A DNA stretch of 64,000 bases, from assembly GCF_008360935.1 (NCBI RefSeq), contig NZ_SRXO01000003.1:310001-374000 (forward strand), given 5' to 3'. The stretch is from Siccirubricoccus phaeus (GTDB lineage Bacteria > Pseudomonadota > Alphaproteobacteria > Acetobacterales > Acetobacteraceae). Below the pieces are notes generated by a model. The model was not told the DNA's origin and did no database searches. It was given only the letters and a program-made list of their open reading frames with translations. This document shows, one piece after another, positions 2,818 through 50,276 of the stretch (position 1 is its first letter; every line of letters starts with the position of its first letter). The translations under genes were made by a program, and so were the position numbers.

Positions 2818-2871
2818 GCTCTCGCTTCCTCATCCGATCGTTCGGAGCCGGCGGCCCGCAGCGCCCGCGGC

Positions 2872-3852: not shown

Positions 3853-3910
3853 GACGGCTTCCTCCTCCCTTGCTTGCGGCGCGAGAGCGCCGGACCCCGT
3901 GCCGCCGGCC

Positions 3911-4897: not shown

Positions 4898-4991
4898 CTG
4901 CTTCCTCCCCATTTTTCCTTGTTCTTCTTTGCCCTGGGTGCGGGTCCGGCCGTACCGCCATCGCCCCGCCCCGCGGCGCATCATCGCGCTT

Positions 4992-5020: not shown

Positions 5021-7003
5021 CTAGGCGCCAACCGTCTCCGCCACCTCCAGCCGCGCGAGCAACTGCCGCGGCCGCACCTGCTCGCCTTCCGCGACACGCA
5101 GCTCGACAACCTTGCCGGCGGCCGCCGCGGTGACCGCGAGGTGCATCTTCATCGCCTCGAGCACCAGCAGGGCCGCGCCCTTCTCCACCTGCTCCCCCGC
5201 CGTGACCTTCACCGCTACGACGCGCCCGCTCATCGGCGCCAGCACCTCGCCGCCCGCCGCCCCGTCCTGCAGCCGCGCATCCGACAGCGGCGCCGGCTCG
5301 AAGCGCAGCACCCGCCCGCCGAGGTCGAGCAGCAGCGCCTCGCCGTCGAAGGCGTGGCGGGCCGTCGCCTGCACGGGGCCGATGCGGAAGCGCAGCCGGT
5401 CGCCCTCGCGCGGCAGCAGCGCCACCGCCAGCCCCAGCGCGTCATCGCCCGGCGGGGCGGCGCCCTCGCCCAGGCTGACCGCGAGATGGCCCTCGGTGCG
5501 CGCGATGCGGGCATGGCGCAGCGTCTCGCCATGGCGCAGCCGCAGCGGCCGGCGCATCCGCCCCGCGCTCCACCAGCCCTGCCCGGCGCCCTCGCGCCCT
5601 TCCAGCAGCACCGCCGCCAGCGCCCAGGCCGCGTCGTCCGGCGCCGGGGCCGGCGGCATGGCCAGGCGATGGTCCACCCAGTCGGTGGTCGCCTGCCCCC
5701 CGGCGAAGACTGGGTCGCGCAGGATGCCGAGCAGGAAGTCGCGGTTGGTGGTCGGCCCCAGCAGCGCCAGTTCCTCGAGCGCGCGCACCAGCCGCCGCCG
5801 TGCCTCCTCGCGGTCGCGGCCATGGGCGATGACCTTGGCGAGCATCGGGTCGTAGAAGGCCGTCACCTCCTGCCCCGCCAGGATGCCGGCATCCACGCGC
5901 AGCCCCGGCCCCGCCGGCGGGTCGAAGACCAGCACCGGGCCGGTCTGCGGCAGGAAGCCCTGGCGCGGATCCTCGGCATAGAGCCGCGCCTCGATGGCGT
6001 GGCCGCGCAGCGCCACCTCATCCTGCGCGAGCGGCAGGCGCGCCCCTGCGGCGACCTCGATCTGCAACGCCACCAGGTCGAGGCCGGTGACGCATTCGGT
6101 GACCGGGTGCTCGACCTGCAGGCGCGTGTTCATCTCGAGGAACCAGAAGGCGCCCTCGGCGTCGAGCAGGAACTCCACCGTGCCGGCCCCGACATAGCCG
6201 ACAGCATGGGCGAGGCGCACCGCCGCCTGCCCCATCGCCGCGCGCAGCGCCGGGTCCACCGCGGGGGAGGGCGCCTCCTCGATGATCTTCTGGTGGCGAC
6301 GCTGCACCGAGCAGTCGCGCTCGCCCAGATGCAGGCAGTTGCCATGGGTGTCGGCGAAGACCTGCACCTCGACATGGCGGCCCGACAGCACGGCGCGTTC
6401 AAGGATCAGTTCGCCGTCACCGAAGGCGGATTGCGCCTCGGCCGCCGCGAGGGCGAGGGCGGGGGCGAGGTCGGCCTCGCGCTCGACGAAGCGCAGCCCG
6501 CGCCCGCCGCCGCCGGCCGCCGCCTTGACCATCAGCGGCAGGCCGAGACCGCGCGCCACCGCGAGGATGCCGGCCTGGTCGAGGCCGCGGCATTCGAGCC
6601 CGGGCAGGCAGGGCACGCCCGCCGCCGCCGCCCGTTCCTTGGCCTCGCGCTTGTTGCCCATGGCCTGGATCGCGGCCGGGGGCGGGCCGATGAAGGTCAG
6701 CCCCGCGGCGATGCAGGCGGCGGCGAATTCCGCGTTCTCGGCCAGGAAGCCGTAGCCCGGATGCAGCGCGTCGGCGCCGGTCAGCGCCGCCGCCTCAAGC
6801 AGCCGCGGCACCGAGAGGTAGGATTCGCCCACCGGCGCGGGGCCGATCTCCACCGCCTCGTCGGCCAGGGCGACATGCGGCGCGCCGGCATCGGCGGCGC
6901 TGTGCACCGCCACCGTGCGATAGCCCAGCGCGCGCGCGCTGCGGATGATGCGCGCGGCGATCTCGCCGCGATTGGCCACCAGGATCTTGGAGAAACCCGC
7001 CAC
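5021..7003 (-). CDS. atuF: Biotin carboxylase/BCCP (alpha) subunit of a branched acyl-CoA carboxylase
   Basis: A 660-residue biotin-containing subunit. It charges biotin with CO2 using ATP for an acyl-CoA carboxylase (geranyl-CoA or 3-methylcrotonyl-CoA type). The N terminus ILVANRGEIAARIIRSA opens the biotin carboxylase domain. An ATP-grasp glycine loop (AAGGGGRGLRF, about residue 170) follows, then a linker and a C-terminal biotinyl domain with EAMKMHL; the lysine, about residue 619, would carry biotin. Length equals both AtuF and LiuD. The start is GTG after AGGGGGCG. It is last in the order dehydrogenase, beta, hydratase, alpha. The atu rather than liu assignment rests mainly on the partner beta subunit and dehydrogenase; 3-methylcrotonyl-CoA remains possible. 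Confidence 0.8.
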   Translation of the reverse strand: MAGFSKILVANRGEIAARIIRSARALGYRTVAVHSAADAGAPHVALADEAVEIGPAPVGESYLSVPRLLEAAALTGADALHPGYGFLAENAEFAAACIAAGLTFIGPPPAAIQAMGNKREAKERAAAAGVPCLPGLECRGLDQAGILAVARGLGLPLMVKAAAGGGGRGLRFVEREADLAPALALAAAEAQSAFGDGELILERAVLSGRHVEVQVFADTHGNCLHLGERDCSVQRRHQKIIEEAPSPAVDPALRAAMGQAAVRLAHAVGYVGAGTVEFLLDAEGAFWFLEMNTRLQVEHPVTECVTGLDLVALQIEVAAGARLPLAQDEVALRGHAIEARLYAEDPRQGFLPQTGPVLVFDPPAGPGLRVDAGILAGQEVTAFYDPMLAKVIAHGRDREEARRRLVRALEELALLGPTTNRDFLLGILRDPVFAGGQATTDWVDHRLAMPPAPAPDDAAWALAAVLLEGREGAGQGWWSAGRMRRPLRLRHGETLRHARIARTEGHLAVSLGEGAAPPGDDALGLAVALLPREGDRLRFRIGPVQATARHAFDGEALLLDLGGRVLRFEPAPLSDARLQDGAAGGEVLAPMSGRVVAVKVTAGEQVEKGAALLVLEAMKMHLAVTAAAAGKVVELRVAEGEQVRPRQLLARLEVAETVGA

Positions 7004-7012
7004 CGGCGCCCC

Positions 7013-7831
7013 CTATGCCTCGCCGGCCCAGGCCGGGCGGCGTTTTTCCAGGAAGGACCTTGTGCCCTCGATGCCTTCCTCGGTGGTGACGCAATCGGCG
7101 AAGACCTCGGCGGCGAATTCGATCATCGCCGCGTCGTCGAGCAGCGATGCGGCGTTGAGCACCCGCTTGGTGCCCGCCAGCGCCCCCGGCCCGCAGCGCC
7201 GCACAGCGCGCTCGATCTCGGCGAGGCGCGCCTCGATCGCCGCATCGTCCTCGCACAGGTGATGCGCGAGGCCGAGCGACGCCGCCTCCCGCCCGTCGAT
7301 CCGCGCGGCGGTGAGCGCGAGCCGGCGCGCCTGCGACAGGCCGAGCCGCCGCACCACATAGGGGGCGATCTGCGCCGGGGCGACGCCGATGCTCGCCTCC
7401 GGCATGGCGAATTGCGCGTCGGGCCGGGTGAGGGTGATGTCGGCCGCGCAGGCAAGGCCGAAGCCCCCGCCCATCGCCGCCCCCTCGACCACCGCGACGA
7501 CCACCTGCGGCGCGTGGTTGACGGCGCGGAACAGCTCCCCGCCCAGGCGGTTGCGCTCGCGCGCCGCGACGCGCGGATCCGCGGCCTGGTCGTGCAGGCT
7601 CTGGTCGCGCTCGCGCATGTCGCCGCCCGAGCAGAACCAGCCGCCGGCGCCGCGCAGCACCACCAGCCGCACCGAGCGGTCATCGGCCAGCGCCGCGAAC
7701 AGCGCGCGCATCTCCCGGTTCAGCGCGGCGCTCATGGCGTTGCGGCGTTCCGGCCGGGTGAACAGCACGTCGAGCCGCATGCCGCGGCGGGCAAGCGCCA
7801 GCGCCTCATGCTGACCGGTGGCGATCTCCAT
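7013..7831 (-). CDS. atuE: Enoyl-CoA hydratase of the branched-acid (AtuE/LiuC) type
   Basis: A 272-residue crotonase-family protein expected to hydrate isohexenylglutaconyl-CoA (AtuE) or 3-methylglutaconyl-CoA (LiuC). The oxyanion-hole segments RPERRNAMS and FCSGGDM are present, then GGGFGLACAAD and a single active-site Glu in MPEASIGVAPAQIAPYV. The APAQIAPYV stretch is what I associate with isohexenylglutaconyl-CoA hydratases. The open frame extends much further upstream, but into the antisense of the beta-subunit gene. The ATG chosen starts MEIATG, with GGAGAGACGAGAG upstream. The gene sits between the two carboxylase subunit genes, 17 bases after beta and 9 before alpha, so the product of carboxylation would feed it directly. 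Confidence 0.8.
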   Translation of the reverse strand: MEIATGQHEALALARRGMRLDVLFTRPERRNAMSAALNREMRALFAALADDRSVRLVVLRGAGGWFCSGGDMRERDQSLHDQAADPRVAARERNRLGGELFRAVNHAPQVVVAVVEGAAMGGGFGLACAADITLTRPDAQFAMPEASIGVAPAQIAPYVVRRLGLSQARRLALTAARIDGREAASLGLAHHLCEDDAAIEARLAEIERAVRRCGPGALAGTKRVLNAASLLDDAAMIEFAAEVFADCVTTEEGIEGTRSFLEKRRPAWAGEA

Positions 7832-7848
7832 CTCTCGTCTCTCCGTCG

Positions 7849-9468
7849 TCACAGCCGCGCCGCGCCGAAGGTGATCGGGCTCAGCGGCCGCAGCGCGCCC
7901 TCGCGGCAGATCGACAGGCACAGCCCGAGCACCCGGCGCGTGTCGCGCGGGTCGATGATGCCGTCGTCCCACAGCCGCGCCGTGGCATAGAGCGCGGTGG
8001 AGACGCGGTCGTATTTCTCGATGATCTCGCGGCGCAGGGTGGCGATCCGCTCCTCGTCCACCGGCTTGCCGGCGCGCTGCAGCTTCGCCTCGGTCACGGT
8101 GCACAGCACGCCCGCCGCCTGCTCGCCGCCCATCACCGCGATGCGCGAATTGGGCCAGGAGAACAGGAAGCGAGGGTCGAAGCTGCGCCCGCACATGCCG
8201 TAGTTGCCGGCGCCGAAACTGCCGCCGACGATGACGGTGATCTGCGGCACGGTGGCGTTGGTGACCGCCTGGATCATCTTCGAGCCGTGCTTGACGATGC
8301 CCTCGGTCTCGGCCTCCCGCCCCACCATGTAGCCGGTGGTGTTCTGCAGGTAGATGATCGGGATGCCCGACTGGCAGCACAGCTGGATGAACTGCGCCGC
8401 CTTGACCGCGCCGCGCTGCGTGATCGGGCCGTTGTTGCCGATCAGCCCGCAGGGATGGCCCTCGATCCGGCCGCGGCCGCAGATGGTGTAGGGGTCGAAG
8501 GCGGCCTTGAACTCCAGGTAGTCGGAATCGTCGAGGATGCGCGCGAGGATCTCGCGCATGTCGTAGGGCGTCTGGTGGCGGGGCGGCACCAGGCCGAGCA
8601 GCTCCTCGGCCGCATGGCGCGGCGGGCGGGCCGGCGGCACCTCGATCTTCGGCCGGCGGTCGTTCCAGTAGAGCTTCTCCACCACCTCGCGCGCCAGGGC
8701 GATCGCGTCGGCGTCGTCCTCGGCGAGGTATTCGGTGGTGCCCGGCCCGGTCGCGTGCATGTCGGCGCCGCCGAGCTCCTCGTCGTCGGCGATCTCGCCG
8801 GTGGCGGCGCGCAGCAGCGGCGGGCCGGCGAGGAAGACGCGCGCGCGCCGCCGCACCATGATGACATGGTCCGACATGCCGGGCACATAGGCGCCGCCGG
8901 CGGTCGAGCTGCCATGCACCACCGTCACCTGCGGGATGCCGGCGGCCGACAGCCGCGCCTGGTTGAAGAACTTGCGGCCGCCGCGGACGAAGGTCTCCTC
9001 CTGGCGGAACAGGTTGCCGCCGCCGCTCTCGACCAGCTGGATCAGCGGCAGCTTCTCGCGCAGGGCGATGTCCTGCGCGCGCAGCGCCTTCTCGGTGCCC
9101 ATCGGCACCGTGGTGCCGCCCTTGATGGCGCTGTCATTGGCGATGACCATGACGCGCGTGCCCGCGACCTGGCCGATGCCCACGATCAGCCCGCCGCCGA
9201 ACACCTCCTCCACCCCGTCATCGTCATGCATGCCGAGCCCGGCGAGGGTCGAGAGGGCAAGGAAGGGCGCCCCGGGGTCGAGCAGCAGCTCGACCCTCTC
9301 GCGCGGCAGCAGCTGGCCGCGGCGGCGGAAGCGTTCGCGCTCGCGCTCCGAACGCTGCCGCACCTTGTCCTCGAGCGCGCGGAAGCGGGCGATCTCCGCC
9401 AGCATCCGCTCCCGGTTGTCGTGAAAGGCGGGCGCTGCGGTGTCGAGCCGCGATTCGATCACCGGCAT
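7849..9468 (-). CDS. atuC: Carboxyltransferase (beta) subunit of a branched acyl-CoA carboxylase
   Basis: A 539-residue carboxyltransferase subunit of the propionyl/methylcrotonyl/geranyl-CoA carboxylase family. It moves CO2 from biotin to the gamma-methyl carbon of an alpha,beta-unsaturated acyl-CoA. Landmarks are GQLLPRERVELLLDPGAPF near residue 50, HGSSTAGGAYVPGMSD mid-protein, FLAGPPLLRAATGE, and the C-terminal half with GSFGAGNYGMCGR. Around the ANDSAIKGGT segment it departs from what I recall of the LiuB pattern and looks closer to AtuC, so geranyl-CoA-type substrates are favoured; this is recollection, not an alignment. RBS GGGAGG precedes ATG. It is translationally close (19 bases) to the dehydrogenase upstream. 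Confidence 0.82.
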   Translation of the reverse strand: MPVIESRLDTAAPAFHDNRERMLAEIARFRALEDKVRQRSERERERFRRRGQLLPRERVELLLDPGAPFLALSTLAGLGMHDDDGVEEVFGGGLIVGIGQVAGTRVMVIANDSAIKGGTTVPMGTEKALRAQDIALREKLPLIQLVESGGGNLFRQEETFVRGGRKFFNQARLSAAGIPQVTVVHGSSTAGGAYVPGMSDHVIMVRRRARVFLAGPPLLRAATGEIADDEELGGADMHATGPGTTEYLAEDDADAIALAREVVEKLYWNDRRPKIEVPPARPPRHAAEELLGLVPPRHQTPYDMREILARILDDSDYLEFKAAFDPYTICGRGRIEGHPCGLIGNNGPITQRGAVKAAQFIQLCCQSGIPIIYLQNTTGYMVGREAETEGIVKHGSKMIQAVTNATVPQITVIVGGSFGAGNYGMCGRSFDPRFLFSWPNSRIAVMGGEQAAGVLCTVTEAKLQRAGKPVDEERIATLRREIIEKYDRVSTALYATARLWDDGIIDPRDTRRVLGLCLSICREGALRPLSPITFGAARL

Positions 9469-9487
9469 CGCCGGACCTCCCGCCGCC

Positions 9488-10654
9488 TCAATGCCGCTTC
9501 CGCTGCCGGTGCGACAGGCCCATGTCCTTGGCGATGATCTGCAGCATCACCTCATTGGCCCCGCCGCCGATCGAGCTGATGCGCGAATCGCGGTAGATGC
9601 GCGAGACCGGGTTCTCCCACATGAAGCCCTGGCCGCCCCAGAACTGCAGGCAGCCGCTCGGGATCACCTGCAGCAGCTGGCCCGCCTTGAGCTTCGCCAT
9701 CGAGGCCAGCCGCGTGACGTTGCCGCCATTCACATAGATCTCGACCGCGCGGTAGATCAGCGAGCGCAGCGCCTCGATCTCGGTCTGCCATTCGGCCAGC
9801 TTGAACTGGATCCACTGGTTGTCGAGCAGGGCCTGCCCGAAGGCCTGGCGCTGGCCGGTGTATTCGGCCGTCATCGCCACCGCGTCCTCGAGCTGCGTGA
9901 TGCTGCGCGTCGCCCCGTAGAGGCGTTCCTCCTGGAACTGCTCCATCTGGTAGATGAAGCCCTTGCCTTCCTCGCCGATGCGGTTGCGGACCGGCACGCG
10001 CACCTCGTCGAAGAAGATCTGCGCGGTGTCCGAGCAGCGCAGGCCGAGCTTGTCCAGCACCCGCGCCACCGTCACGCCCTTGGTCTTCATCGGCACCACG
10101 ATGAGCGACTTGTTGCGGTGCGGCGCGCCTTCCTCGCCGGTGTTGCACAGCAGGCAGATCCAGTCGGCCTGGGCGCCGTTGGTGATCCACATCTTGCCGC
10201 CGTTGATGACGTAGTCGTCGCCGTCGCGCCGCGCATGGGTGCGGATGCTCGCCACGTCCGATCCCGCGCCTTCCTCGCTGACGCCGATCGCGCCGACCAT
10301 GTCGCCGGCGATCAGCGGCACCAGGAACTCGCGGCGCAGCTCGTCCGAGCCATGCTTGGCCAGCGCCGGGCAGCACATGTTGGTCTGCACGCCGATCGAG
10401 GTGGACACGCCCTGCGCCGCGACATGGCCGAGCTCCTCGGCCATCACCGTCTCGTAGGAATAGTCGAGGCCGAGGCCGCCGAAGGAGGGCGGGCGGGTGA
10501 TGCCGAGCAGCCCGGCCTTGCCGAGGATCTTCATCACCTGGTGGGCGGGGTAGCGGCCAGCCTTCTCCCACTCATCGACATGGGGGTTGATCTCCTCCTT
10601 CACGATGCGGGCGATCGTGCGGCGGATGGCCTCGTGTTCCTCGGTGAACAGCAT
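9488..10654 (-). CDS. atuD: Acyl-CoA dehydrogenase, citronellyl-CoA-dehydrogenase-like
   Basis: A 388-residue FAD-dependent acyl-CoA dehydrogenase that would introduce the 2,3-double bond before carboxylation, passing electrons to ETF. Family signature regions: IGVSEEGAGSDVASI (FAD/substrate) and KMWITNG. The C-terminal loop reads SSIGGGANEVML, so the usual loop glutamate is glycine, as in isovaleryl-CoA dehydrogenase. The candidate base is instead the Glu in helix G (QFQEERLYG, about residue 244). The start MLFTEEHEAIRRT and the GGGANEVML end resemble AtuD (citronellyl-CoA dehydrogenase) more than LiuA. It is first of the dehydrogenase-beta-hydratase-alpha run, 26 bases after the synthetase gene. 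Substrate assignment is moderate. Confidence 0.8.
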   Translation of the reverse strand: MLFTEEHEAIRRTIARIVKEEINPHVDEWEKAGRYPAHQVMKILGKAGLLGITRPPSFGGLGLDYSYETVMAEELGHVAAQGVSTSIGVQTNMCCPALAKHGSDELRREFLVPLIAGDMVGAIGVSEEGAGSDVASIRTHARRDGDDYVINGGKMWITNGAQADWICLLCNTGEEGAPHRNKSLIVVPMKTKGVTVARVLDKLGLRCSDTAQIFFDEVRVPVRNRIGEEGKGFIYQMEQFQEERLYGATRSITQLEDAVAMTAEYTGQRQAFGQALLDNQWIQFKLAEWQTEIEALRSLIYRAVEIYVNGGNVTRLASMAKLKAGQLLQVIPSGCLQFWGGQGFMWENPVSRIYRDSRISSIGGGANEVMLQIIAKDMGLSHRQRKRH

Positions 10655-10680
10655 GCGCGTCTCCTCGTTCGTTGTGTCGG

Positions 10681-12912
10681 TCAGAGCGTCTGGATCAGGG
10701 CGTCCACGGCGACGCCGCCGCGCCCGCGCGGGTGCAGGATGAAGGGGTTGACGTCCACGCCGAGCAGCCGGTCGCGGTGGCGGTCGGCGAAGACCGACAG
10801 CCGCGCGAGTGCGGCGGCCAGCGCCTCGACATCGGCCGGCGGCGCCCCGCGCGCGCCTTCGAGCAGCGGCCAGGCGCGCAGCTCGCGCAGCATCCGCATC
10901 GCCTCGGCCTCGCTGAAGGGCGCCACGCGGAAGCTGACATCGCCGAGTGCCTCGACATGGATGCCGCCGAGCCCGGCCATCACCACCGGGCCGAAGACCG
11001 GGTCGCGGTGGACGCCGAGGATCATCTCGGTGCCCCGCCCGACCATGGGGGAGACGATCACGCCCTCGATGCGCGCGCCCGGCGCCTTCTCGCGCGCCGA
11101 GGCGCCGATGCGCGCGAAGGCGTCGCGCACCGCCGCGGCGGAGGCGAGGCCGAGCGCCACGCCGCCCACCTCGGTCTTGTGGGCGATGTCGGGCGAGAGG
11201 ATCTTCATCGCCACCGGGAAGCCCAGCGCCTCGGCCGCCGCCGCCGCCTCCTCGGCCGTGCGGGCGATGCGGTCGGGGACCATCGGGATGCCGGCGCCGG
11301 CGAGGATCGCCTTGGCCGCGCGCTCATCGAGCGGGCCGGCCGGCAGGTCCGGCTGCGGCGGCAGCACCGGCGGCGCCTCGGCCGCGCCGCGCTCGGCGAA
11401 GGCGCGCCCGAAGCGCACCAGCGCGGCGATGGCGCGCGTCGCCTCCACCGGGTCGCGATAGACCAGCATGCCGCGTTCCTCGAGGCTGCGGCGGACCTCC
11501 GGCGCGGCATCCATGGCCAACGCGAAGACGCGGTCCGAGAACTCGGCCGACAGCGCCTCGAAGATCGGGCGCAGGCGCTCGACGAAAACGGGGTTGCGGC
11601 CGAGATGCGCCATGAACAGCACCGCCGTCGGGCAGCCGCCCTGCTGCATGAGGATCCGCAGCGACTTCGGCCACAGCGAGAAATCATGCAGCGCCGCGCC
11701 GGTCAGGTCCACCGGGTTGCGAAGCCCGCCCGCCGGCACCAGCGCGCGCAGCTCCTCCCGCGCCGGGGCCGGCAGTTCCGGCACGTCCAGCCCCTCGCGC
11801 CGCGCGGTGTCGGCGGTCAGCACGCCCGCCCCGCCCGAGATGGTCAGCACGCCGAGCGCCGGCGTGGTCGGGAAGCGCCCGAGGTTGCAGGCGTAGCCGA
11901 TCGAGAGGAACTCCTCGAGCGAGCGGGCGCGGTGCACGTCGTACTGGCGGAACAGCGCGTCATAGACCTCGTCCGCGCCGGCCAGCGAGGCGGTGTGCGA
12001 GGCCGCCGCCGCGGCGCCGACATCCGAGGCGCCGACCTTCATCATCACCACCGGCTTGCCCAGCGCGCGGGCGCGTTCCAGCGCGCCCACCAGCGCCTGC
12101 GGCCGGCCGCAGCCCTCGATATAGGCGAGCACGACGCGCGTCTCGGGATCCTCGAGCGCATAGGCCAGGGTGTCGGTGAAATCCACATCCGCCTGGTTGC
12201 CCGTGGTGGCCCAGAGGTTGAGGCCGATCCCCTGGTCGCGCGCGAGGCCGAGGCAATAGGAGCCGAAGGCGCCAGACTGGCTGACGATGCTGACCCCGCC
12301 CGGCTTCGGCCAATTGCCCGAGACGATATAGGTGAAGGAGGCGATGAGCCGCCGGCGCACATTGATCGTGCCCATGCAGTTCGGCCCCATCAGCCGCATG
12401 CCGTGCCGGCGCGCCAGCGCGACCAGGCTGTCCTGCGCCTGCCGTCCCGCCTCGTCCACCTCGGCGAAGCCGGCGCTGAACACCACCGCGGCGCGCACGC
12501 CCTTGGCCGCGCAGGCCTCGATCGCGCCATGCACGTCGCGCGTCGGCACCGAGACGATGGCGAGATCGACCTCGCCCGGCACATCGGCGATGGAGCGGTA
12601 GGCGGGCAGGCCCTGCACCGTCGGGTAGTTCGGGTTGACGGGCAGGATGCGGCCCTCGAAGCCGGCCTCGATCAGGCCGGCGACGGGGCGGCCGCCGATC
12701 TTGAGCGGGTCGGCCGAGGCGCCGATCACCGCCACCGAACGGGCATTGAAGAAGGGCGCGACCGTGGCGGCCGCCGGCCAGGAAGCGAGGGTCACGGGCG
12801 CCGCGCCCACCGGCGCGAAGCGCCCCGCATGGCGCGCCGCGATACGCGGCCCGCGCCGTCGTGCCGCAGCGCGGCCCGCAAGCGAGTCGTCATCCTGAAC
12901 TTCCCCACCCAT
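10681..12912 (-). CDS. Fused ADP-forming acyl-CoA synthetase
   Basis: About 743 residues. An NDP-forming acyl-CoA (acetate-CoA type) synthetase with alpha and beta parts fused, making or breaking an acyl-CoA with ATP/ADP. The CoA-binding domain begins at PFFNARSVAVIGAS. The likely phospho-histidine lies in AASHTASLAG, and a C-terminal ATP-grasp contains MKILSPDIAHKTEVGGV. The start is uncertain: the ATG chosen (MGGEVQ) lies about 37 bases after a good promoter but has no clear RBS, and a GTG at 12795 nearer the conserved domain is an alternative. It leads the carboxylase operon. It may activate the acid that the operon degrades, or recover ATP from an acyl-CoA end product; the direction cannot be read. 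Confidence 0.8.
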   Translation of the reverse strand: MGGEVQDDDSLAGRAAARRRGPRIAARHAGRFAPVGAAPVTLASWPAAATVAPFFNARSVAVIGASADPLKIGGRPVAGLIEAGFEGRILPVNPNYPTVQGLPAYRSIADVPGEVDLAIVSVPTRDVHGAIEACAAKGVRAAVVFSAGFAEVDEAGRQAQDSLVALARRHGMRLMGPNCMGTINVRRRLIASFTYIVSGNWPKPGGVSIVSQSGAFGSYCLGLARDQGIGLNLWATTGNQADVDFTDTLAYALEDPETRVVLAYIEGCGRPQALVGALERARALGKPVVMMKVGASDVGAAAAASHTASLAGADEVYDALFRQYDVHRARSLEEFLSIGYACNLGRFPTTPALGVLTISGGAGVLTADTARREGLDVPELPAPAREELRALVPAGGLRNPVDLTGAALHDFSLWPKSLRILMQQGGCPTAVLFMAHLGRNPVFVERLRPIFEALSAEFSDRVFALAMDAAPEVRRSLEERGMLVYRDPVEATRAIAALVRFGRAFAERGAAEAPPVLPPQPDLPAGPLDERAAKAILAGAGIPMVPDRIARTAEEAAAAAEALGFPVAMKILSPDIAHKTEVGGVALGLASAAAVRDAFARIGASAREKAPGARIEGVIVSPMVGRGTEMILGVHRDPVFGPVVMAGLGGIHVEALGDVSFRVAPFSEAEAMRMLRELRAWPLLEGARGAPPADVEALAAALARLSVFADRHRDRLLGVDVNPFILHPRGRGGVAVDALIQTL

Positions 12913-12955
12913 GACCGCGGCTGCGTCGCGCCGCGTGCCTCGTTCTCGTGGTCCA

Positions 12956-12984
12956 ATCATTGACGGCCGGAACAGGGCTGTCAA
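12956..12984 (-). promoter_or_regulatory. Overlapping divergent promoters between the synthetase and lyase genes
   Basis: On the minus strand TTGACA (12984-12979), a 17-base spacer and AATGAT (12961-12956) make a good sigma70-type promoter for the synthetase/carboxylase operon. On the plus strand TTGACG (12960-12965), 17 bases, then AAGGAT (12983-12988) is a weaker match facing the lyase gene. The TTGAC/GTCAA ends are inverted repeats of each other, so the two promoters lie on top of one another. Confidence 0.55.
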
Positions 12985-13079
12985 GGATGCCGGGACGGCT
13001 GGCGCGATACCGCCCTCGTGCCGCAAGATGGCGCGGCGGGCGCAACGCGCCGGCGCAAATGGGGAGGAGGCCAGGACGC

Positions 13080-14060
13080 ATGTCCGATCTGCCGAAGCGC
13101 GTCGAGTTCCACGAGGAAGGCCCGCGCGAGGGCTTCCAGATCGAGCCGCGGGTCTATCCGCTCGAACAGCGCGCCGCGCTGGTCGAGGCGCTGGCCGAGA
13201 CCGGCCTCAAGGCGGTGCAGGTCGCCTCCTTCGTCTCGCCCAAGGCGGTGCCGCAGATGGCGGATTCCGAGGCGCTCTTCGCCGCCATCCGCCGCCGCCC
13301 CGGCGTGCGCTACGAGGCGGTCTGGTTGAACGAGCAGGGCTTCGAGCGCGCCCGCGCCACGCCCGGCGTCGATCTCGCCGGCAAGATCAGCCTCTATGCC
13401 TCCGACGCCTTCGCGCGGCGCAACAACAACTGCTCGGCCGAGGAGATGCGCGGGCGCGTGCTGCGCTGGCTCGACCTCTATGCCGAGGCGGGGCTGAAGG
13501 TCGAGCGCGCGCTGGTCATGGCCGCCTTCGGCTGCAACTTCGAGGGCGAGATCCCGCCGGCCCGCGCGGTGGACGAGCTGGTCTGGGCGCACCGCACCTG
13601 CGCCGAGCGCGGCATCGTGCTGCCGAAGGTCTATCTCGCCGACACCATGGGCTGGGCCAATCCGCAATCGGTCCGCCGGCTGGTGGGCATGCTGCGCGAG
13701 GCGCTGCCCGCCACCCGCATCGGGCTGCACCTGCACGACACGCGCGGGCTCGGCGCGGCGAATGTGCTGGCGGCGCTCGAGATGGGCGTCGATCTGTTCG
13801 ACAGCTCGATCGCCGGGCTCGGCGGCTGCCCATTCGCGGGGCATGGCGACAGCCGCGGCGCGGGCAACATCTGCACCGAGGACACGGTGTTCCTCTGCCA
13901 CGAGATGGGCATCGAGACCGGCCTCGACCTCGAGAAGCTGATCGAGGCGGCGCGCCTCGCCGAGCGCATCATCGGCCGTCCGCTCGGCGGGCATGTCATG
14001 CATGCCGGCTCGCTCGCCAAATACCGCGCGCGGGCGGGCGCCGCCGCCGGCCACGGCTGA
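13080..14060 (+). CDS. HMG-CoA-lyase-family enzyme (DRE-TIM aldolase)
   Basis: A 326-residue lyase of the 3-hydroxy-3-methylglutaryl-CoA lyase family, which splits a tertiary 3-hydroxyacyl-CoA into two smaller parts with a divalent metal. It has EEGPREGFQIE at the N terminus (counterpart of the VGPRDGLQ strand), LADTMGWANP, metal-binding HLHDTRGLG, and the catalytic-loop cysteine in GLGGCPFAG. After that cysteine the loop reads GHGDSRGAGN, longer than the usual short Gly-rich stretch, so the substrate may not be plain HMG-CoA. A 3-hydroxy-3-isohexenylglutaryl-CoA lyase role would complete the divergent atu-like operon. RBS GGGGAGGAGG is 8 bases from the ATG. It is followed by the aliB-like gene after 38 bases. 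Confidence 0.82.
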   Translation: MSDLPKRVEFHEEGPREGFQIEPRVYPLEQRAALVEALAETGLKAVQVASFVSPKAVPQMADSEALFAAIRRRPGVRYEAVWLNEQGFERARATPGVDLAGKISLYASDAFARRNNNCSAEEMRGRVLRWLDLYAEAGLKVERALVMAAFGCNFEGEIPPARAVDELVWAHRTCAERGIVLPKVYLADTMGWANPQSVRRLVGMLREALPATRIGLHLHDTRGLGAANVLAALEMGVDLFDSSIAGLGGCPFAGHGDSRGAGNICTEDTVFLCHEMGIETGLDLEKLIEAARLAERIIGRPLGGHVMHAGSLAKYRARAGAAAGHG

Positions 14061-15197
14061 TCGCGACCAGGGGCGGGACATCCGCGAGGGAACCACGAAT
14101 GAGCTTCATACCGACCGAGGAGCAGCAGGCGATCTCCGACGCCGCGCGCCGCTTCGCCGCCAGCCGGCTCGCGCCCGGCTACCGCGCGCGCGAACAGGCC
14201 GGCGCGCTCGATCGCGCGCTGCTGCGCGAGATGGGCGGCCTCGGCCTGATCGCGCCCGAGATGCCCGAGAGCCATGGCGGCCTCGGCCAGTCCTGCGTGA
14301 CGGCGGGGCTGGTGGTCGAGGCGGTGGCCCATGCCGACATCAATGTCAGCTACGTCCAGCTGCTCGGCTCGCTGATGGGCAGCATCATCCTGCGCCACGC
14401 GGCGGCGCCGCTGGCGCAGGACTGGGTGCGGCGCATCGTCGGCGGGGAGGCGATCGTCGCCATCGGCCTGACCGAGCCGCGCGGCGGGTCGGATGCGGCC
14501 AACCTCGCGCTGCGCGCCGAGCGCGCCGGCAATGGCTGGGTGCTGTCGGGCGAGAAGACCTCGATCAGCTGCGCCGACCAGGCCGAGGGGATCGTCGTCT
14601 TCGCCCGCAGCGGCCGCCCCGAGGACGGCGCGCGCGGCGTCAGCGCCTTCCTCGTGCCGCTCGACGCGCCGGGCATCTCGCGCTCGCGCTTCGACGATTT
14701 CGGCACCTGCGCGGTGGGCCGCGGCTCGGTCTTCTTCGACGGCGTGAAGGTGCCGGCCGACCACATGCTCGGCGAGGAGAACCGCGGCTTCGTGCAGGTC
14801 ATGCAGGGCTTCGACTACAGCCGCGCGCTGATCGGGCTGCAATGCATCGCCGCCGCGCAGGCCTCGCTCGACGAGAGCTGGGCCTACATCCAGGAACGCC
14901 GGACCTTCGGCGCGCCGCTGGCGCAATACCAGGGCGTGACCTTCCCCCTCGCCGAGGGGGAGACCATGCTCGCCGCGGCGCGGATGCTCTGCTACCAGAC
15001 CCTGGCGCTGCGCGACCACGGCCTGCCGCACACCTCGGAAGCGGCGATGTGCAAGTGGCTCGCCCCCAAGACGGCGGTGGAGGTGATCCACCAATGCCTG
15101 CTGACCCACGGCCATGCCGGCTATTCGAAGGACCTGCCGCACCAGCAGCGGCTGCGCGACGTCATGGGACTCGAGATCGGCGACGGCACCGCGCAGA

Positions 15198-16916
<1,719 letters not shown>

Positions 16917-16950: not shown

Positions 16951-18126
16951 TCAGTCGCGCCGGGCGAAACTCCGGCCGATCAGCTGGCGGTGCACCTGGT
17001 TCGTACCTTCCCATATCTGGGTGATCTTGGCGTCACGGAAAAGGCGCTCGACCCGGTAGTCCTGGATGTAGCCGTAGCCGCCATGCATCTGGATCGCGTC
17101 GGTGGCGATCCGCATGGCGAGGTCGGAGGCGCGCATCTTCGCCATCGAGGATTCGAGGCCGTAGCCCTCCTCGCCGTCCTCCATCACGCCGCACAGGTAG
17201 TCGAGCCACGCCTCGGCCATGGCGAGGTCGGTCGCGGCATCGGCGATGGTGAACTGGTTGGCCTGGAAATCCACGATCCGCCGGCCGGAGGAGCGGCGGT
17301 CATTGGCATAGGAGACCATGTCGCGGAAGGCCGCCCGCGCGATGCCGAGCGCATGCGCCGCCACCGAGGGGCGCGAGCGGTTGAGCGCGGCGAACAGCAG
17401 CTTCAGCCCCTCCCCCGGCGCGCCGATCAGGTTGGCGCGCGGCACGCGGCAGCCCTCGAAGGCGAGCGCGGCGGTGGAGGATGCGCGGTGGCCGAGCTTC
17501 TCCTCCAGCCGCAGCACCTTGTAGCCCTGCACCGCCTGCCGCTCGATCACCAGCAGGCTGATCGCGCCCTTGGGGTCGGCGATGCCCTCCCACTTGCCGA
17601 AAAGAAGCAGGAAATCGGCCACGTCGCCGCTGGTGATGAAGACCTTGCCGCCATCGACCACGATCTCGTCGCCCTCGGGGCGGAAGCGCGTGGTCATGGC
17701 GGTGGCGTCGGAGCCGCCGACCGCCTCGGTGATGGCGAGCGCGCCGAGCGCGCCCTCGGCGATGCGCGGCAGCACGCGCGCCTTCAGCTCCTCGGAGCCG
17801 AAATCCATCAGCGGCCCGAGCGCATGGTAGTTGGTGGCATAGATGATGGCGGTGGAGGCGCAGGCCTCGGCGAGGATCTTGACCACCTCGAGATAGGTGC
17901 GGAAGCGCAGCCCCACCCCGCCATGGGCCTCGGGCAGGAAGATACGGTTGAGGCCGAGCTCGTTGATGCGGCGGATATTGTCCCAGGGGAATTCGCCGCT
18001 GCGGTCGTGATGGGCCGCGCGCGGGGCGATGTGCTCGGCGCAGAGCCGGCGCACCTGGTCGAGCAGCAGCGTCTCCTCGGCGGTCCAGCCGCGGCGGCGT
18101 TCGAGGCGTTCGAAGATGGGGTTCAT
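16951..18126 (-). CDS. Acyl-CoA dehydrogenase
   Basis: A 391-residue acyl-CoA dehydrogenase with the usual loop glutamate (QIWEGTNQVHR near the C terminus) and the middle-domain signature AITEAVGGSDATAM and KVFITSGD. An in-frame upstream ATG exists, but the chosen one (MNPIFERL) has AGGCAGGAA 3 bases away. It sits 34 bases upstream of the aliA-like ligase and downstream of a Bug gene in the alicyclic-acid operon. It could oxidise the ring acyl-CoA or pimeloyl-CoA produced by BadI. The aspartate-type dehydrogenase at 14099-15265 is the competing candidate for the ring step. Confidence 0.82.
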   Translation of the reverse strand: MNPIFERLERRRGWTAEETLLLDQVRRLCAEHIAPRAAHHDRSGEFPWDNIRRINELGLNRIFLPEAHGGVGLRFRTYLEVVKILAEACASTAIIYATNYHALGPLMDFGSEELKARVLPRIAEGALGALAITEAVGGSDATAMTTRFRPEGDEIVVDGGKVFITSGDVADFLLLFGKWEGIADPKGAISLLVIERQAVQGYKVLRLEEKLGHRASSTAALAFEGCRVPRANLIGAPGEGLKLLFAALNRSRPSVAAHALGIARAAFRDMVSYANDRRSSGRRIVDFQANQFTIADAATDLAMAEAWLDYLCGVMEDGEEGYGLESSMAKMRASDLAMRIATDAIQMHGGYGYIQDYRVERLFRDAKITQIWEGTNQVHRQLIGRSFARRD

Positions 18127-18160
18127 GGGTTCCTGCCTTTCCTGCGCTGGCGCCGCCCGG

Positions 18161-19147
18161 TCATGCCGGCCGCATGCCGGAACGGCGGACGACATCGCCC
18201 CAGCGCTCGATCTCGCGGGTGATGAAGGCTGCGATCTCCGGCGGCGACATGGGCTCGCCCGGATTGGCGCCGAGTTCGGCGAAGCGCGCGCGCAGCGCCG
18301 GTTCGGCCAGCGCGGCGATGATGGCCTCGTTCAGCCGCGCCACCGCCTCGGGCGGCGTGCGCGCGGGCGCGAGCGCCGCGTTCCAGGTGCGGCAGTCGAA
18401 GCCCGCGACGCCCGCTTCCTCGAGCGTGGGCACGCCGGGGAAGACCGGCGAAGGGGTGCGGGTGCTGATCGCGAGGGCCCGCACGCTGCCCGAACGCACC
18501 AGCGCCGAGGCGGTGGAGACCGGGTCGAACGTGAACTGGATCTGTCCCGCCACCAGATCCTGCAGCGCCGGGCCGTTGCCGCGATAGGCGACGTGCAGGA
18601 TGTCCACCCCGGCCAGCAGCCGCAGCAGCTCGCCCGCCAGGTGCGGCGTGCTGCCCACCCCGGCCGAGCCATAGGTGAAGGCGCCCGGCCGCGCGCGCAG
18701 CAGCGCCAGGAAGGCGCGCGCATCCGCCGCCGGCACCGCCGGGTGGACGATCAGCGCCATCGGCACCTCGCTGAACATGGCCACCGGGGCGAAGTCGCGC
18801 TCGGTGTCGTAGGGCAGGGAGGGCAGCAGCGTCGGGTTGACCGTGTGGCTGGTGGTCGCCACCAGCAGCGTGTAGCCGTCGGGCGCCGCGCGCGCGACGA
18901 ATTCCGAGCCGCCGACGACCCCTCCGCCGGTGCGGTTCTCGACCACCACGGGCTGGCCGAGCCGGGCGGTGATCGCCTGCGCCACGAGGCGGGAGACGAC
19001 ATCGGTGCCCCCGCCCGCGGCATAGGGCACGACAAGACGCACCGGACGGTCGGGAAACGCCGCCGATGCGGGCGCCGCCAGCGCCACGCCGCCCATCCCG
19101 GCCATCAGCGACCGGCGCGAGATGCCAGGATTGTGCTTGTTGTTCAT
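18161..19147 (-). CDS. Bug/TTT-family solute-binding protein
   Basis: A 328-residue Bug-family periplasmic protein inside the alicyclic-acid operon. The ATG chosen (MNNKHNPGISRRS) has GGGAGG upstream and gives a twin-arginine leader SRRSLMAG ending near APASAAF; an upstream extension of 69 codons is Arg/Pro-rich and non-coding in style. Family motifs PYAAGGGTDVVSR, VENRTGGGVVGG and HVAYRGNGPALQD are present. Because an entire ABC importer is encoded in the same operon, this protein would be a second capture route for the same or a related carboxylate. No TctAB permease is nearby. Confidence 0.87.
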   Translation of the reverse strand: MNNKHNPGISRRSLMAGMGGVALAAPASAAFPDRPVRLVVPYAAGGGTDVVSRLVAQAITARLGQPVVVENRTGGGVVGGSEFVARAAPDGYTLLVATTSHTVNPTLLPSLPYDTERDFAPVAMFSEVPMALIVHPAVPAADARAFLALLRARPGAFTYGSAGVGSTPHLAGELLRLLAGVDILHVAYRGNGPALQDLVAGQIQFTFDPVSTASALVRSGSVRALAISTRTPSPVFPGVPTLEEAGVAGFDCRTWNAALAPARTPPEAVARLNEAIIAALAEPALRARFAELGANPGEPMSPPEIAAFITREIERWGDVVRRSGMRPA

Positions 19148-19229
19148 CGCCGCCGCCTCCCTGCCTTGTGGCAGGCGCGGGCGGCGATCCGCCCGCGCCC
19201 GTGATGGTCCGGTTCCCCGCGCCCCTCGC

Positions 19230-20015
19230 TCAGCGGAAGGGCGAGAAGTCCGGCTTGCGCTTCTCGACGAAGGCGCGCTTGCCTTCCATCGCTTCCTCGG
19301 TGTGGCCGAAGCCGTCGAGCGCGGCCATCGCCATCTTGGTGGTGCCGTAGGCATGGGCCGAATCGGCGTTGAAGGAATACTTCAGGAACTTGATGGCGGT
19401 CGGGCTCAGCGCCGCGATCTCCGCCGCCCAGCCCTTGGCCTCGGTCATCAGCTGGGCCTGCGGCACGATCTTGTTGACGAGGCCCATCTCCTTCGCTTCC
19501 TCCGCCGTGTACTGGCGGCAGAGGAACCAGATCTCGCGCGCCTTCTTCTCGCCGACGATGCGCGTCAGCAGCGCCGTGCCCCAGCCGGCGTCGAAGGAGC
19601 CGACGCGTGGCCCGGCCTGGCCGAAGCGGGCATTGTCGGATGCGATGGTCAGGTCGCACAGCACATGCAGCACATGGCCGCCGCCGATGGCGAAGCCGTT
19701 CACCGCCGCGATCACCGGCTTGGGGATGTCGCGGATGGTGTTCTGCAGCGTCTCGACCTCCCACAGCCCGTTGGCGCTGGTGCCGTAGCCGCCGGTCTCG
19801 ACGTATTCCTTCTGGTCGCCGCCGGTGCAGAAGGCCTTGCTGCCCGCGCCGGTCAGGATCACGCAGGCGACCTTCTGGTCCACCCAGGCGCGCTGGAGGG
19901 CGTTGATGAGTTCCTCCACCGTGCGGCCGCGGAAGGAATTGTAGCGGTCGGGCCGGTTGATGGTGATGATCGCCGTGGAATCCTCCACGGCATAGAGGAT
20001 GTCGGTGTAGTCCAT
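19230..20015 (-). CDS. badI: 2-Ketocyclohexanecarboxyl-CoA hydrolase
   Basis: A 261-residue crotonase-fold enzyme that opens the ring of 2-ketocyclohexanecarboxyl-CoA to give pimeloyl-CoA. It matches BadI closely in remembered landmarks: RPDRYNSFRG, AFCTGGDQKEY, IRDIPKPVIAAVNG, GGGHVLHVLCDLTI, FGQAGPRVGSFDAGWGT and VGEKKAREIWF. Both glutamates of classical hydratases are absent and an Asp/Gly-rich stretch replaces them, as expected for this ring hydrolase. The ATG (MDYTDILY) has AGGAGAAC upstream; the frame runs further upstream only as antisense of badH. The next gene upstream is badH, so the two steps are adjacent as in the Rhodopseudomonas benzoate cluster. Confidence 0.88.
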   Translation of the reverse strand: MDYTDILYAVEDSTAIITINRPDRYNSFRGRTVEELINALQRAWVDQKVACVILTGAGSKAFCTGGDQKEYVETGGYGTSANGLWEVETLQNTIRDIPKPVIAAVNGFAIGGGHVLHVLCDLTIASDNARFGQAGPRVGSFDAGWGTALLTRIVGEKKAREIWFLCRQYTAEEAKEMGLVNKIVPQAQLMTEAKGWAAEIAALSPTAIKFLKYSFNADSAHAYGTTKMAMAALDGFGHTEEAMEGKRAFVEKRKPDFSPFR

Positions 20016-20077: not shown

Positions 20078-20821
20078 TCACGACATGGTCAGCCCGCCCG
20101 AGACGCTGAGCGTCTGGCCGGTGATGTAGCGCGAGCGGTCGGAGGCGAAGAACAGGATCGCGTCGGCGATCTCCTCGGGCTTCGCCACGCGCTTGAGCGG
20201 GATGGCTCGGGCCAGCGCCTCGCGCATCCGCTCGGGCTGGGCGGCGAAGAGCGGCGTGTCGGTCGGCCCCGGGCAGACCACGTTGCAGGTGATCTCGTGG
20301 CGCGCCATCTCGCGCGCCAGCGACTTGGTGAAGGCGATGACGCCGCCCTTGGCGCCGGCATAGACCGTCTCGCCCATGCTGCCGACGCGCCCGGCGTCGC
20401 TCGCCACCGTCACCACCCTGCCGCCGCCGCCTTCCATCATCGGGTCGAGGAAGGCGCGCACGAAGCGCACGCAGCCGAGGTAGTTGATCTGCACGATCTG
20501 TTCCCAGAACTCGGGCGGATTCTTCACGAAGGGCTCGATGCGGTCCCACCCGGCGGTGCTGATCACCGCATCGGCGCGCTTGACCTTCGCATGCACCGCG
20601 GCGGCGAAGGCGGCGACCGCCTCGGGCTTGGTGACGTCGAGCGGCAGCGCCTCGGCCTGGCCGCCGGCGGCGGCGATGCGCGCGGCGGTCTCGCGCCCGC
20701 CATCGAGGTTGAGGTCGCCGATGAAGACGCGCGCGCCGGCCTGCGCCAGCGCCAGGCAGGTGGCGCGCCCGATGCCGGAGGCGCCGCCGCTCACCACGGC
20801 GACCTTGTCGTTGAGTTTCAT
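20078..20821 (-). CDS. badH: 2-Hydroxycyclohexanecarboxyl-CoA dehydrogenase (SDR)
   Basis: A 247-residue short-chain dehydrogenase expected to oxidise 2-hydroxycyclohexanecarboxyl-CoA to the 2-keto compound with NAD+. The Rossmann motif is GGASGIG (about residues 12-18), the active site is YAGAKGG, and the BadH-like stretch CPGPTDTPLF follows. RBS TAGGAG precedes the ATG. It lies between badI (62 bases downstream) and the hydratase gene (9 bases upstream). Generic SDR genes are common; the specific call depends on its neighbours and on the CPGPTDTPLF segment. Confidence 0.83.
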   Translation of the reverse strand: MKLNDKVAVVSGGASGIGRATCLALAQAGARVFIGDLNLDGGRETAARIAAAGGQAEALPLDVTKPEAVAAFAAAVHAKVKRADAVISTAGWDRIEPFVKNPPEFWEQIVQINYLGCVRFVRAFLDPMMEGGGGRVVTVASDAGRVGSMGETVYAGAKGGVIAFTKSLAREMARHEITCNVVCPGPTDTPLFAAQPERMREALARAIPLKRVAKPEEIADAILFFASDRSRYITGQTLSVSGGLTMS

Positions 20822-31466: not shown

Positions 31467-31518
31467 GGTTTCCCCCACTCCACTTTTTATTTCAGTTTGC
31501 TTTTCCAGCGTCTTTGTC

Positions 31519-34990: not shown

Positions 34991-35086
34991 TGGCGGGGCC
35001 ATGCCAGCCTGGGATGGCGACTTGACGGATGCCGGTCCGACCCGATAGCTGCGGATGGCGATCGAGGAATGAAGGGGGATAACGTC

Positions 35087-42821: not shown

Positions 42822-42920
42822 CCCGTTCCTTCCTGTGACCATGCCGCCCGGCGTCCGGACGCCGGCGATGAATTCCCGTTGCCGCGCGCCGGGCGGGTGC
42901 CGGCGGCGCGACCCCGCAGC

Positions 42921-48230: not shown

Positions 48231-48237
48231 CGCGCGC

Positions 48238-48705: not shown

Positions 48706-48718
48706 GCTCCGTTCCTCC

Positions 48719-49897: not shown

Positions 49898-49934
49898 CTT
49901 CCCGCTTCCTTGCCGCGGCGTCCCGTCGCGCCGT

Positions 49935-50273: not shown

Positions 50274-50276
50274 CGC

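Follow-up and report, generated by a model that had tools for sequence, protein, structure and literature searches.

Which compounds are degraded by a carboxylase operon whose genes stand in the order of the leucine/isovalerate (Liu) operon but whose enzymes resemble those of acyclic terpene (Atu) catabolism? This question is raised by a locus of Siccirubricoccus phaeus (Acetobacteraceae). The window analysed here is a stretch of 64,000 nucleotides, positions 310001-374000 of contig NZ_SRXO01000003.1 (C23 below), in a genome of 6.55 Mb. An assignment of its carboxylase, dehydrogenase and hydratase to the Atu type rather than the Liu type is supported by the sequence comparisons given below. 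The reading that we favour for the whole locus, to which we give a little less than an even chance, is a hybrid catabolic module that would couple Atu-type branch removal with ring cleavage in the degradation of terpenoid or naphthenic acids.

A preliminary description, made from the letters of the sequence, had noted the order dehydrogenase, beta, hydratase, alpha, as in liuABCD. All four genes are present on the minus strand and would be transcribed in this order from 10654 to 5021, in an operon that appears to begin with an acyl-CoA synthetase gene. The lyase gene is divergent, as had been described, and runs from ATG to stop, encoding 326 amino acids. The motifs quoted there were all located: IGGGANEVML in the dehydrogenase, PAQIAPYV in the hydratase and GHGDSRGAGN in the lyase, the last one behind GGCPFA. 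The genes of this block are as follows.

10681 to about 12915, minus strand: ADP-forming acyl-CoA synthetase, start uncertain; NF045494 420.6 bits, below the cut-off of 1200 and too low to assign a substrate.
9488..10654, minus strand: AtuD-like acyl-CoA dehydrogenase of the citronellyl-CoA dehydrogenase type; identity to atuD-type genes, IGGGANEVML.
7849..9468, minus strand: AtuC-like beta subunit of the geranyl-CoA carboxylase (GCC) type; best match 5ikl, Gly163, insertion absent, tree.
About 7013..7804, minus strand: AtuE-like hydratase of the isohexenylglutaconyl-CoA type, start codon uncertain; best PDB match 4zu2, PAQIAPYV, tree.
5021..7003, minus strand: AtuF-like alpha subunit (biotin carboxylase and biotin carboxyl carrier protein) of the GCC type; no stop; 45-57% identity to the alpha subunits of geranyl-type loci.
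13080..14060, plus strand: divergent long-loop lyase of the HMGL family; NF004283 253.3 bits, above the cut-off of 246; own clade, support 99.

The Atu-type assignment rests on trees, on matches of the beta subunit and the hydratase to solved structures and, for the beta subunit, on a published rule about a glycine and an insertion. The beta subunit scored 705.6 bits with the GCC beta structure 5ikl and 553.5 bits with 3u9r, the beta subunit of methylcrotonyl-CoA carboxylase (MCC). For the hydratase, 4zu2, a putative isohexenylglutaconyl-CoA hydratase, scored 243 bits, the unassigned enoyl-CoA hydratase 4k3w 222.7 bits and 5jbw/5jbx, which we take to be LiuC-type, 104.9 bits. The alpha subunit matched MCC alpha 3u9s best, and the name GCC alpha was absent among the 60 PDB matches listed. 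According to passages of Jurado and others (PMC4673880), Gly162 of GCC beta replaces Phe191 of MCC beta, and MCC beta carries three extra residues immediately ahead of this phenylalanine. The beta subunit in the window reads FVRG---GRKFF, with Gly163 aligned to GCC Gly162 and the three-residue insertion absent. At this marker site, the pocket, whose residues the preliminary description had proposed to inspect, is of the GCC kind. The same genome has a separate liuA-liuB-liuD-like set on contig C12, and its second beta subunit, encoded by this liuB, reads FPDREHFGRIFY at the marker site, with the insertion and the phenylalanine of the methylcrotonyl type.

Loci for comparison were classed in the same way: those from named genomes were called geranyl-type when they were without the insertion motif, and one (L215) was reassigned by hand to the methylcrotonyl type from its motif. 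Among the 20 geranyl-type loci from other genomes, 16 were classed by search score, and the motif was shown for 13. For the dehydrogenase in the window, 19 of 20 geranyl-type regions contained an atuD-type counterpart with 56-65% identity, and liuA of its own genome was 32% identical. A motif of the IGGGADEVML kind was found in 41 of 48 geranyl-type loci (seven gave no match), the window having N where those have D; a motif of the IGAGTSEIRR kind was found in 23 of 29 liu loci (six without a match). The hydratase motif PAQI was present at 26 of 35 geranyl-type loci, with no match at the other nine, and at none of 25 methylcrotonyl-type loci. Judged by sequence, the quoted motifs are not due to chance.

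FastTree trees were built from the window, the loci of one scan of named genomes (80 kept) and four further regions. In the beta tree (86 rows), the window lay on the geranyl side of the split with support 100; two loci that are geranyl-type by motif, L223 and L224, sat on the methylcrotonyl side. In the hydratase tree (61 rows), it fell within a set of support 98 alongside 28 geranyl-type rows. In the alpha tree (78 rows), the nearest rows were geranyl-type, yet the two groups did not part cleanly. The nearest rows in the dehydrogenase tree (79 rows) were from geranyl-type loci, with a less clean parting of the groups and with long-branch warnings. The preliminary description had held that the dehydrogenase, the beta subunit and the hydratase look like terpene enzymes, and it had named clustering with LiuA-E, or the long lyase loop in HMG-CoA (3-hydroxy-3-methylglutaryl-CoA) lyases, as what would speak against this. 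No clustering with LiuA-E was seen, and the long loop was absent from 24 liu-type lyases.

An ordinary Liu operon was rejected on account of the trees and of the separate liu-type set on C12. A diverged leucine/isovalerate operon would agree with the liuABCD order, but it is very improbable, given that the enzymes in the window lie on the Atu side of the trees, that the lyase lies outside the liu-type clade, and that the set on C12 has a beta subunit with the methylcrotonyl-type marker. The order SDR (short-chain dehydrogenase/reductase), beta, dehydrogenase, hydratase, alpha, as in atuB-F, was complete in 14 of 20 geranyl-type regions of other families, the rest being variant or cut short; the order in the window (D-C-E-F) is the rearranged one. 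Only three of 200 genomes drawn from the order of S. phaeus had a geranyl-type beta subunit at E 1e-185 or better: S. phaeus itself, G193 and G074.

The lyase belongs to the HMGL-like family (PF00682, E 1.1e-31; 2ftp, E 2e-55). In a tree of 64 lyases, it was one of the 24 members of a long-loop clade. The neighbouring short-loop clade had 15 members (support 93), and a group of 25 sequences, made up of liu-type lyases and paralogs, was separate from both (support 100). A divergent paralog on contig C54 was included in this tree and left out of the counts of loops and residues. The stretch from GGCP[FY] to GN had nine residues in all 24 long-loop, seven in all 15 short-loop and five in all 24 liu-type sequences; the loop after the catalytic cysteine is indeed longer than in HMG-CoA lyase, as had been claimed. 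Passages of PMC6941031 list Arg41, Glu72, Tyr167 and Cys266 as critical residues of HMG-CoA lyase and Asp42, Asn275, His233 and His235 as metal ligands. The window and the 24 long-loop sequences all retain Arg41, His233, His235, Cys266 and Asn275. In the window, Glu17, counted from the ATG at 13080, takes the place of Asp42 and Gln47 that of Glu72, and both changes are fixed in all 24 long-loop sequences. The short-loop lyases have Glu for Asp42 in 15 of 15 and Gln for Glu72 in 14 of 15, the liu-type lyases keep Asp and Glu in 24 of 24, and the position of Tyr167 is variable in all three groups. By its sequence, the lyase thus differs from ordinary HMG-CoA lyases, since its clade departs from them both in the loop and in the catalytic set.

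The lyase gene does not appear to be the last of its unit. The ATG of the next product, AliB, lies at 14099, 38 nucleotides past the lyase stop, and a set for the cleavage of the cyclohexanecarboxyl-CoA ring stands near it: aliB, aliA (convergent with aliB), badI/badH-like genes and a hydratase gene. The genes on this side are the following.

14099..15265, plus strand: AliB, cyclohexanecarboxyl-CoA dehydrogenase; TIGR03207 594.5 bits, above the equivalog cut-off of 575.35.
15198..16916, minus strand: AliA, cyclohexanecarboxylate-CoA ligase, its 3' end overlapping aliB; TIGR03208 791.8 bits, 0.5 bits short of the cut-off of 792.3.
16951..18195, minus strand: acyl-CoA dehydrogenase, substrate not assigned; best model NF042972 300.2 bits, below the cut-off of 640.
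19230..20003, minus strand: BadI-like 2-ketocyclohexanecarboxyl-CoA hydrolase; TIGR03210 (BadI) 331.1 bits, below the cut-off of 467.6.
20078..20821, minus strand: BadH-like 2-hydroxycyclohexanecarboxyl-CoA dehydrogenase; TIGR03206 276.9 bits, the best model, below the cut-off of 431.2.
20831..21592, minus strand: enoyl-CoA hydratase, a candidate for the BadK step; PRK09076 185.1 bits, below the cut-off of 286.
21624..22826, minus strand: binding protein of an ATP-binding cassette transporter of the branched-chain/urea kind (uptake); TIGR03407 134.5 bits, below the cut-off of 492.75.

We compared this set with 10 other AliB loci from nine genomes, found in a draw of 398 genomes of the phylum. 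BadH, BadI and AliB were contiguous in nine of the 10 loci, and AliA was alongside in seven. Identities of the window to these loci were 43-50% for BadH, 51-56% for BadI, 56-69% for AliB and 52-60% for AliA beside AliB (seven loci). The BadH-like and BadI-like products, AliA and AliB thus appear to be genuine bad-ali partners. A geranyl-type beta subunit was encoded at a separate locus in three of the nine other AliB genomes (G637, G746 and G919) and in 33 of 397 genomes overall, which gives 0.75 expected; the hypergeometric P of 0.03 for this co-occurrence was noticed after the fact, with kinship not controlled.

The presence of a lyase of this family beside a geranyl-type carboxylase is itself unusual. 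We examined 67 geranyl-type loci, 47 from named genomes and 20 others, of which 59 are 17 kb or longer. Within about 10 kb, an AtuA relative was found at 43 of the 67 and an HMGL-family lyase at none; at 33 methylcrotonyl-type loci, the HMGL lyase was found at 23 and AtuA at none. Dropping L223 and L224, which the beta tree makes doubtful and which both have AtuA, gives AtuA at 41 of 65 and the HMGL lyase at 0 of 65. At these 100 carboxylase loci, AtuA and the HMGL lyase are mutually exclusive. The window departs from this pattern in being geranyl-type with an HMGL lyase and with AtuA not near. With AtuA, AtuB, AtuG and AtuH of Pseudomonas nitroreducens as queries, AtuA had no match in the window, and AtuB, AtuG and AtuH had no close counterpart there, the only matches being general SDR or ligase ones of 22-35%. 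In three control loci, the same queries matched AtuA, AtuB and AtuG at 76-88%, except for AtuG in one of them (26%). Because the AtuH query matched no control locus, the absence of AtuH means little. The sole AtuA-family (PF07287) match of the genome is on contig C8, with 33% identity to AtuA of Pseudomonas fluorescens. The absence of AtuA alone says little, since 24 of the 67 geranyl-type loci carry neither AtuA nor the HMGL lyase.

The preliminary description had suggested that the lyase could be the poorly known 3-hydroxy-3-isohexenylglutaryl-CoA lyase. LiuE reportedly has a role in acyclic terpene catabolism, to judge from the title of a 2009 paper by Chavez-Aviles. The step is less nameless than had been stated: in the passages concerned, a review names LiuE for it (PMC4097962), a Thauera paper names AtuA (PMC4847356), and a third source words the role of AtuA as 'speculated' (PMC9973270). 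That AtuA and HMGL lyases do not occur together at the loci examined speaks, circumstantially, for AtuA performing this step at other loci. A geranyl-type locus without atuA that has its own HMGL-family lyase offers a further candidate for the cleavage of 3-hydroxy-3-isohexenylglutaryl-CoA.

The lyase clade recurs beside carboxylases in one other genome. A class-level search gave seven lyase loci in six of 385 genomes. In G461, a genome of another family, the lyase lies directly downstream of a carboxylase beta-alpha pair at both loci. One of these, L073, has on one strand genes for an AliB-like protein, a hydratase, a dehydrogenase, a ligase that is presumably PaaK-type, beta, alpha, the long-loop lyase, an SDR and a citryl-CoA-lyase-like protein; its AliB-like product is 63% identical to AliB of the window and reaches 523.4 bits with TIGR03207, below the cut-off of 575.35. 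The other, L072, has the order carboxylase beta-alpha-lyase. Half of these six genomes, namely G200, G384 and G461, also carry an atuB-F-like cluster elsewhere, that of G461 without a hydratase match, and no atuA was matched within about 9 kb of these clusters. Of the other three, methylcrotonyl-type loci are present in G277 and G225, and a divergent relative with 56% identity in G554. At the phylum level (398 genomes), the search at E 1e-100 gave only the lyase of S. phaeus itself and, in G746, a single relative with the short loop. Long-loop lyases are therefore rare, and the evidence for their recurrence comes from few genomes.

A third kind of carboxylase, 54-56% identical to liuB, was seen in G461, G225, G200 and G384 (L072, L073 and L274-L277), genomes that also have long-loop lyases. 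In G746, the short-loop lyase relative (L273) lies between carboxylase-like subunits; carboxylase neighbours are therefore not confined to the long-loop clade. An acyl-CoA dehydrogenase at 35069-36253 of the window has 47% identity to one in the gene row of the G461 lyase.

If the parts of the locus work together, the AtuD-like dehydrogenase would give a CoA ester of the 3-alkyl-crotonyl type whose 3-substituent is bulky, and the geranyl-type carboxylase would add a carboxyl group to the gamma carbon of that ester. The AtuE-like hydratase would then form a 3-hydroxy-3-alkylglutaryl-CoA, which the long-loop lyase, in place of AtuA or LiuE, would cut to acetyl-CoA and a 3-oxo acid, to be re-activated by the ADP-forming synthetase. 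According to passages of PMC4847356, the Atu set converts an acyl-CoA that has a 3-methyl branch and a bulky group R to R-CO-CH2-COO- and acetyl-CoA. We assume a cyclohexane ring as the bulky group because the lyase gene lies in one apparent unit with aliB, beside aliA and the badI/badH-like genes. If R is cyclohexyl, re-activation by the synthetase and thiolysis would result in cyclohexanecarboxyl-CoA, the substrate of AliB. In the likeliest order, the side chain would be trimmed first, and AliB, the BadK-like hydratase, BadH and BadI would then open the ring to give pimelyl-CoA. The reverse order is possible: a 4-alkyl ring acid could be opened first, and a 3-alkylglutaryl-type product could pass to the hydratase and the lyase. 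The sequences show the family to which each gene belongs, the pocket residues, the loop and the substitutions at catalytic positions, the synteny, the purifying selection and the horizontal sharing; that the lyase acts in this pathway and is co-transcribed with aliB, what the substrate is and which half comes first, we infer from gene order and known chemistry. Such a joint pathway would employ the principal genes of the block and would account for the placing of the lyase gene and aliB in one unit. We favour it for the four Atu-type enzymes, the 38-nucleotide gap between the lyase gene and aliB, the bad-ali partners, the recurrence in G461, the exclusion of AtuA and HMGL lyases, the genome-level co-occurrence of AliB with a geranyl-type beta subunit, the low dN/dS values of the block given below and the location of the liu-type set elsewhere in the genome.

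A narrower version is unlikely. It would hold that a single mobile locus strips a beta-methyl-branched side chain off a cyclohexane ring by geranyl-type gamma-carboxylation and a long-loop lyase with Glu-Arg-Gln for Asp-Arg-Glu, handing cyclohexanecarboxyl-CoA straight to AliB/BadHI, and that the long-loop clade consists of dedicated lyases for bulky 3-hydroxy-3-alkylglutaryl-CoA esters.

The block is shared with two other genomes of the order. Contig C34 of G193 (85.7 kb) matches the region along its whole length at 96.7-98.9%. The match to contig C16 of G074 (134.7 kb) is broken into pieces, with some gaps; most of it is 92-96% identical, and shorter pieces have 88, 91 and 98%. The rpoB regions of the three genomes, which belong to three genera, are 86% identical pairwise. 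The G074 match extends from about C23:259,900 to 387,600 and stops at the contig end, so the region may reach further. Conjugation-type genes lie at its sides (TrbI, TrbL, VirB8, CagX, a T2SSE-type ATPase, the CagE/TrbE type and a coupling protein of a type IV secretion system), together with DUF3363, which we take to be part of a relaxase, IS110 and DDE transposases and two tyrosine-recombinase open reading frames (ORFs). A tRNA-Arg gene is at C23:255,149-255,225, and no attachment-site (att) repeat was found at this end of the region. The stretch C23:255149-395276 (L138, L140, L253 and L254), with the window inside, is a probable integrative conjugative element; the region is chromosomal, as rpoB lies on the same contig. 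For 12 genes of the block, the ratio of nonsynonymous to synonymous substitution rates (dN/dS) was 0.05-0.28 against the G074 copies, so they are under purifying selection. The lyase gene and aliB are adjacent in all three copies. In G193, the aliA copy (L043) aligns to window positions 15198-16916 with gaps of 7 and 1 nucleotides and matches in frame over its first part only; it may be broken or frame-shifted, or the gaps may be sequencing errors.

Several results weigh against a joint pathway. The full combination was seen only in the three near-identical copies of S. phaeus, G193 and G074 and therefore counts as one event, and G193 differs too little for dN/dS (0 to 0.73, aliA highest). The scores of the BadH-like and BadI-like products and of the hydratase are all below equivalog cut-offs, BadK was not assigned, and on the BadI-like product the MenB model reached 338.7 bits (cut-off 380), slightly above the BadI model. 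No lyase or carboxylase subunit was found in the 10 other AliB loci, over stretches of 6.8-19.9 kb. The G461 carboxylases are not geranyl-type, being 54-56% identical to liuB and having a phenylalanine and an insertion where the marker lies, and the AliB match of L072 is 29%. A rival reading, which we consider rather unlikely, though not lightly dismissed, is that the Atu-type block and the ring-cleavage set are two modules with no pathway in common. It agrees with the GCC pocket marker of the carboxylase, with Atu-type and bad-ali loci each occurring alone elsewhere, and with the abundance of other acyl-CoA genes in the region. It sits poorly with a window without AtuA and without close AtuB or AtuG, with a lyase that adjoins aliB on the strand of aliB, outside the carboxylase operon, and with the recurrence of an AliB-like gene, a carboxylase and a long-loop lyase together in G461.

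The lyase clade raises a further doubt. Among the 200 genomes of the order, 17 have the lyase at 70% identity or more; 14 of these are without a geranyl-type beta subunit, and the other three share the region. At 14 of 15 stand-alone loci of the same family, a CaiB-type CoA-transferase gene, 70-100% identical to the L053 copy, lies within 1.2 kb of the lyase gene, and a carboxylase at none. This is the main evidence that the clade is not terpene-specific, and the long-loop clade is no terpene marker; we dropped the long loop as a signature of a terpene pathway, and the suggestion of a terpene lyase family was not borne out. A cognate CaiB, 60-70% identical to those partners, is encoded in the same region (C23:273124-274272), about 49 kb upstream and next to a receptor of the tripartite tricarboxylate transporter type, and the lyase may therefore have another role. 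The changes at the two catalytic acids, unlike HMG-CoA lyase, could likewise mean a different reaction. The lyase might then belong to neither half of the locus and act with CaiB on a small branched hydroxydicarboxylate (citramalate-like), having merely been moved beside aliB. From the CaiB pairing we considered, and keep as a rival, (R)-citramalyl-CoA lyase, on which no paper was found among open-licence PMC papers. A CaiB partnership is doubtful here: the two genes are far apart in the copies of S. phaeus and G074 (the G193 contig stops short of CaiB), the lyase gene adjoins aliB in all three copies, and in G461 it comes after carboxylase subunits. The preliminary interpretation as a whole, with atu-like enzymes and a lyase that completes a citronellol/geraniol pathway, is supported in part. 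The G461 relatives downstream of beta-alpha and the lack of atuA in the window favour a role of the lyase beside an Atu-type carboxylase; a terpene lyase family finds no support, nor does a citronellol/geraniol pathway, with AtuA and close AtuB/AtuG absent from the window and a cyclohexanecarboxylate ring-cleavage set as the next genes.

The joint pathway has partial likenesses in known systems. With the atuABCDEFGH cluster of Pseudomonas, the window shares the pocket glycine and relatives of AtuC (47-67%), AtuD (56-70%), AtuE (37-52%) and AtuF (45-59%) at geranyl-type loci; it differs in the Liu-like order, the lack of AtuA and of a close AtuB, the HMGL-family lyase, the ADP-forming synthetase upstream and the adjacent ring-cleavage genes. 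With liuABCDE it shares the order of the four genes and an HMGL-family lyase nearby, but its enzymes are outside the Liu clades, and the lyase is divergent with a longer loop and altered catalytic acids. To the bad-ali cluster of Rhodopseudomonas palustris and Aromatoleum sp. CIB, as passages of PMC9795900 present it, the window has counterparts in AliA, AliB, the BadH-like and BadI-like enzymes and a candidate for BadK; in the window, the set is split by other genes, the lyase gene is ahead of aliB, and an Atu-type carboxylase block is adjacent. For the mrc cluster of Castellaniella defragrans, which serves limonene/perillyl-CoA ring cleavage, passages of PMC4109377 propose that Bad-like enzymes act on the ring of a monoterpene, which is a precedent for employing them on terpenoids; the text of the paper mentions no carboxylase and, as the sole lyase, a citrate lyase. 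The thn cluster of anaerobic naphthalene degraders, a ring-acid degradation cluster, lists AtuA-like lyases in passages of PMC12016498, so there is some precedent for Atu-type chemistry alongside ring acids; these are AtuA-like instead of HMGL-like lyases, in anaerobes, and the text of the paper does not mention geranyl-CoA. Among open-licence PMC papers, we found no precedent for GCC with cyclohexane ring acids (the one co-mention was cyclohexane as a solvent) and none for 4-methylcyclohexane/3-methylglutaryl-CoA, for which only unrelated papers came up. If the link to aliB holds, Atu chemistry would extend from acyclic terpenes to ring-bearing (naphthenic, bisabolane-type) acids, in a region common to several genera.

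Other genes of the window may be noted. Genes for many TctC-like tripartite-tricarboxylate receptors interleave the catabolic genes (1831-4984, 18161-19282, 30468-31478 and 41850-43754; one checked with Pfam, the others by eye), and the gene after alpha on the minus strand encodes, by appearance, such a receptor. Two Baeyer-Villiger-type flavin monooxygenases are encoded at 138-1781 and 28791-30431, their nearest named model being pentalenolactone D synthase, far below its cut-off; a 48% relative of the former adjoins a long-loop lyase gene at L070. An ORF at 49935-50273 matches the C-terminal domain of acyl-CoA dehydrogenases only. A second acyl-CoA cluster at 46084-58327 contains several acyl-CoA dehydrogenases, two Thiolase_C_1 proteins, an SDR, a hydratase and a FAS1_DH-type protein, and presumably resembles sets for the degradation of branched side chains.

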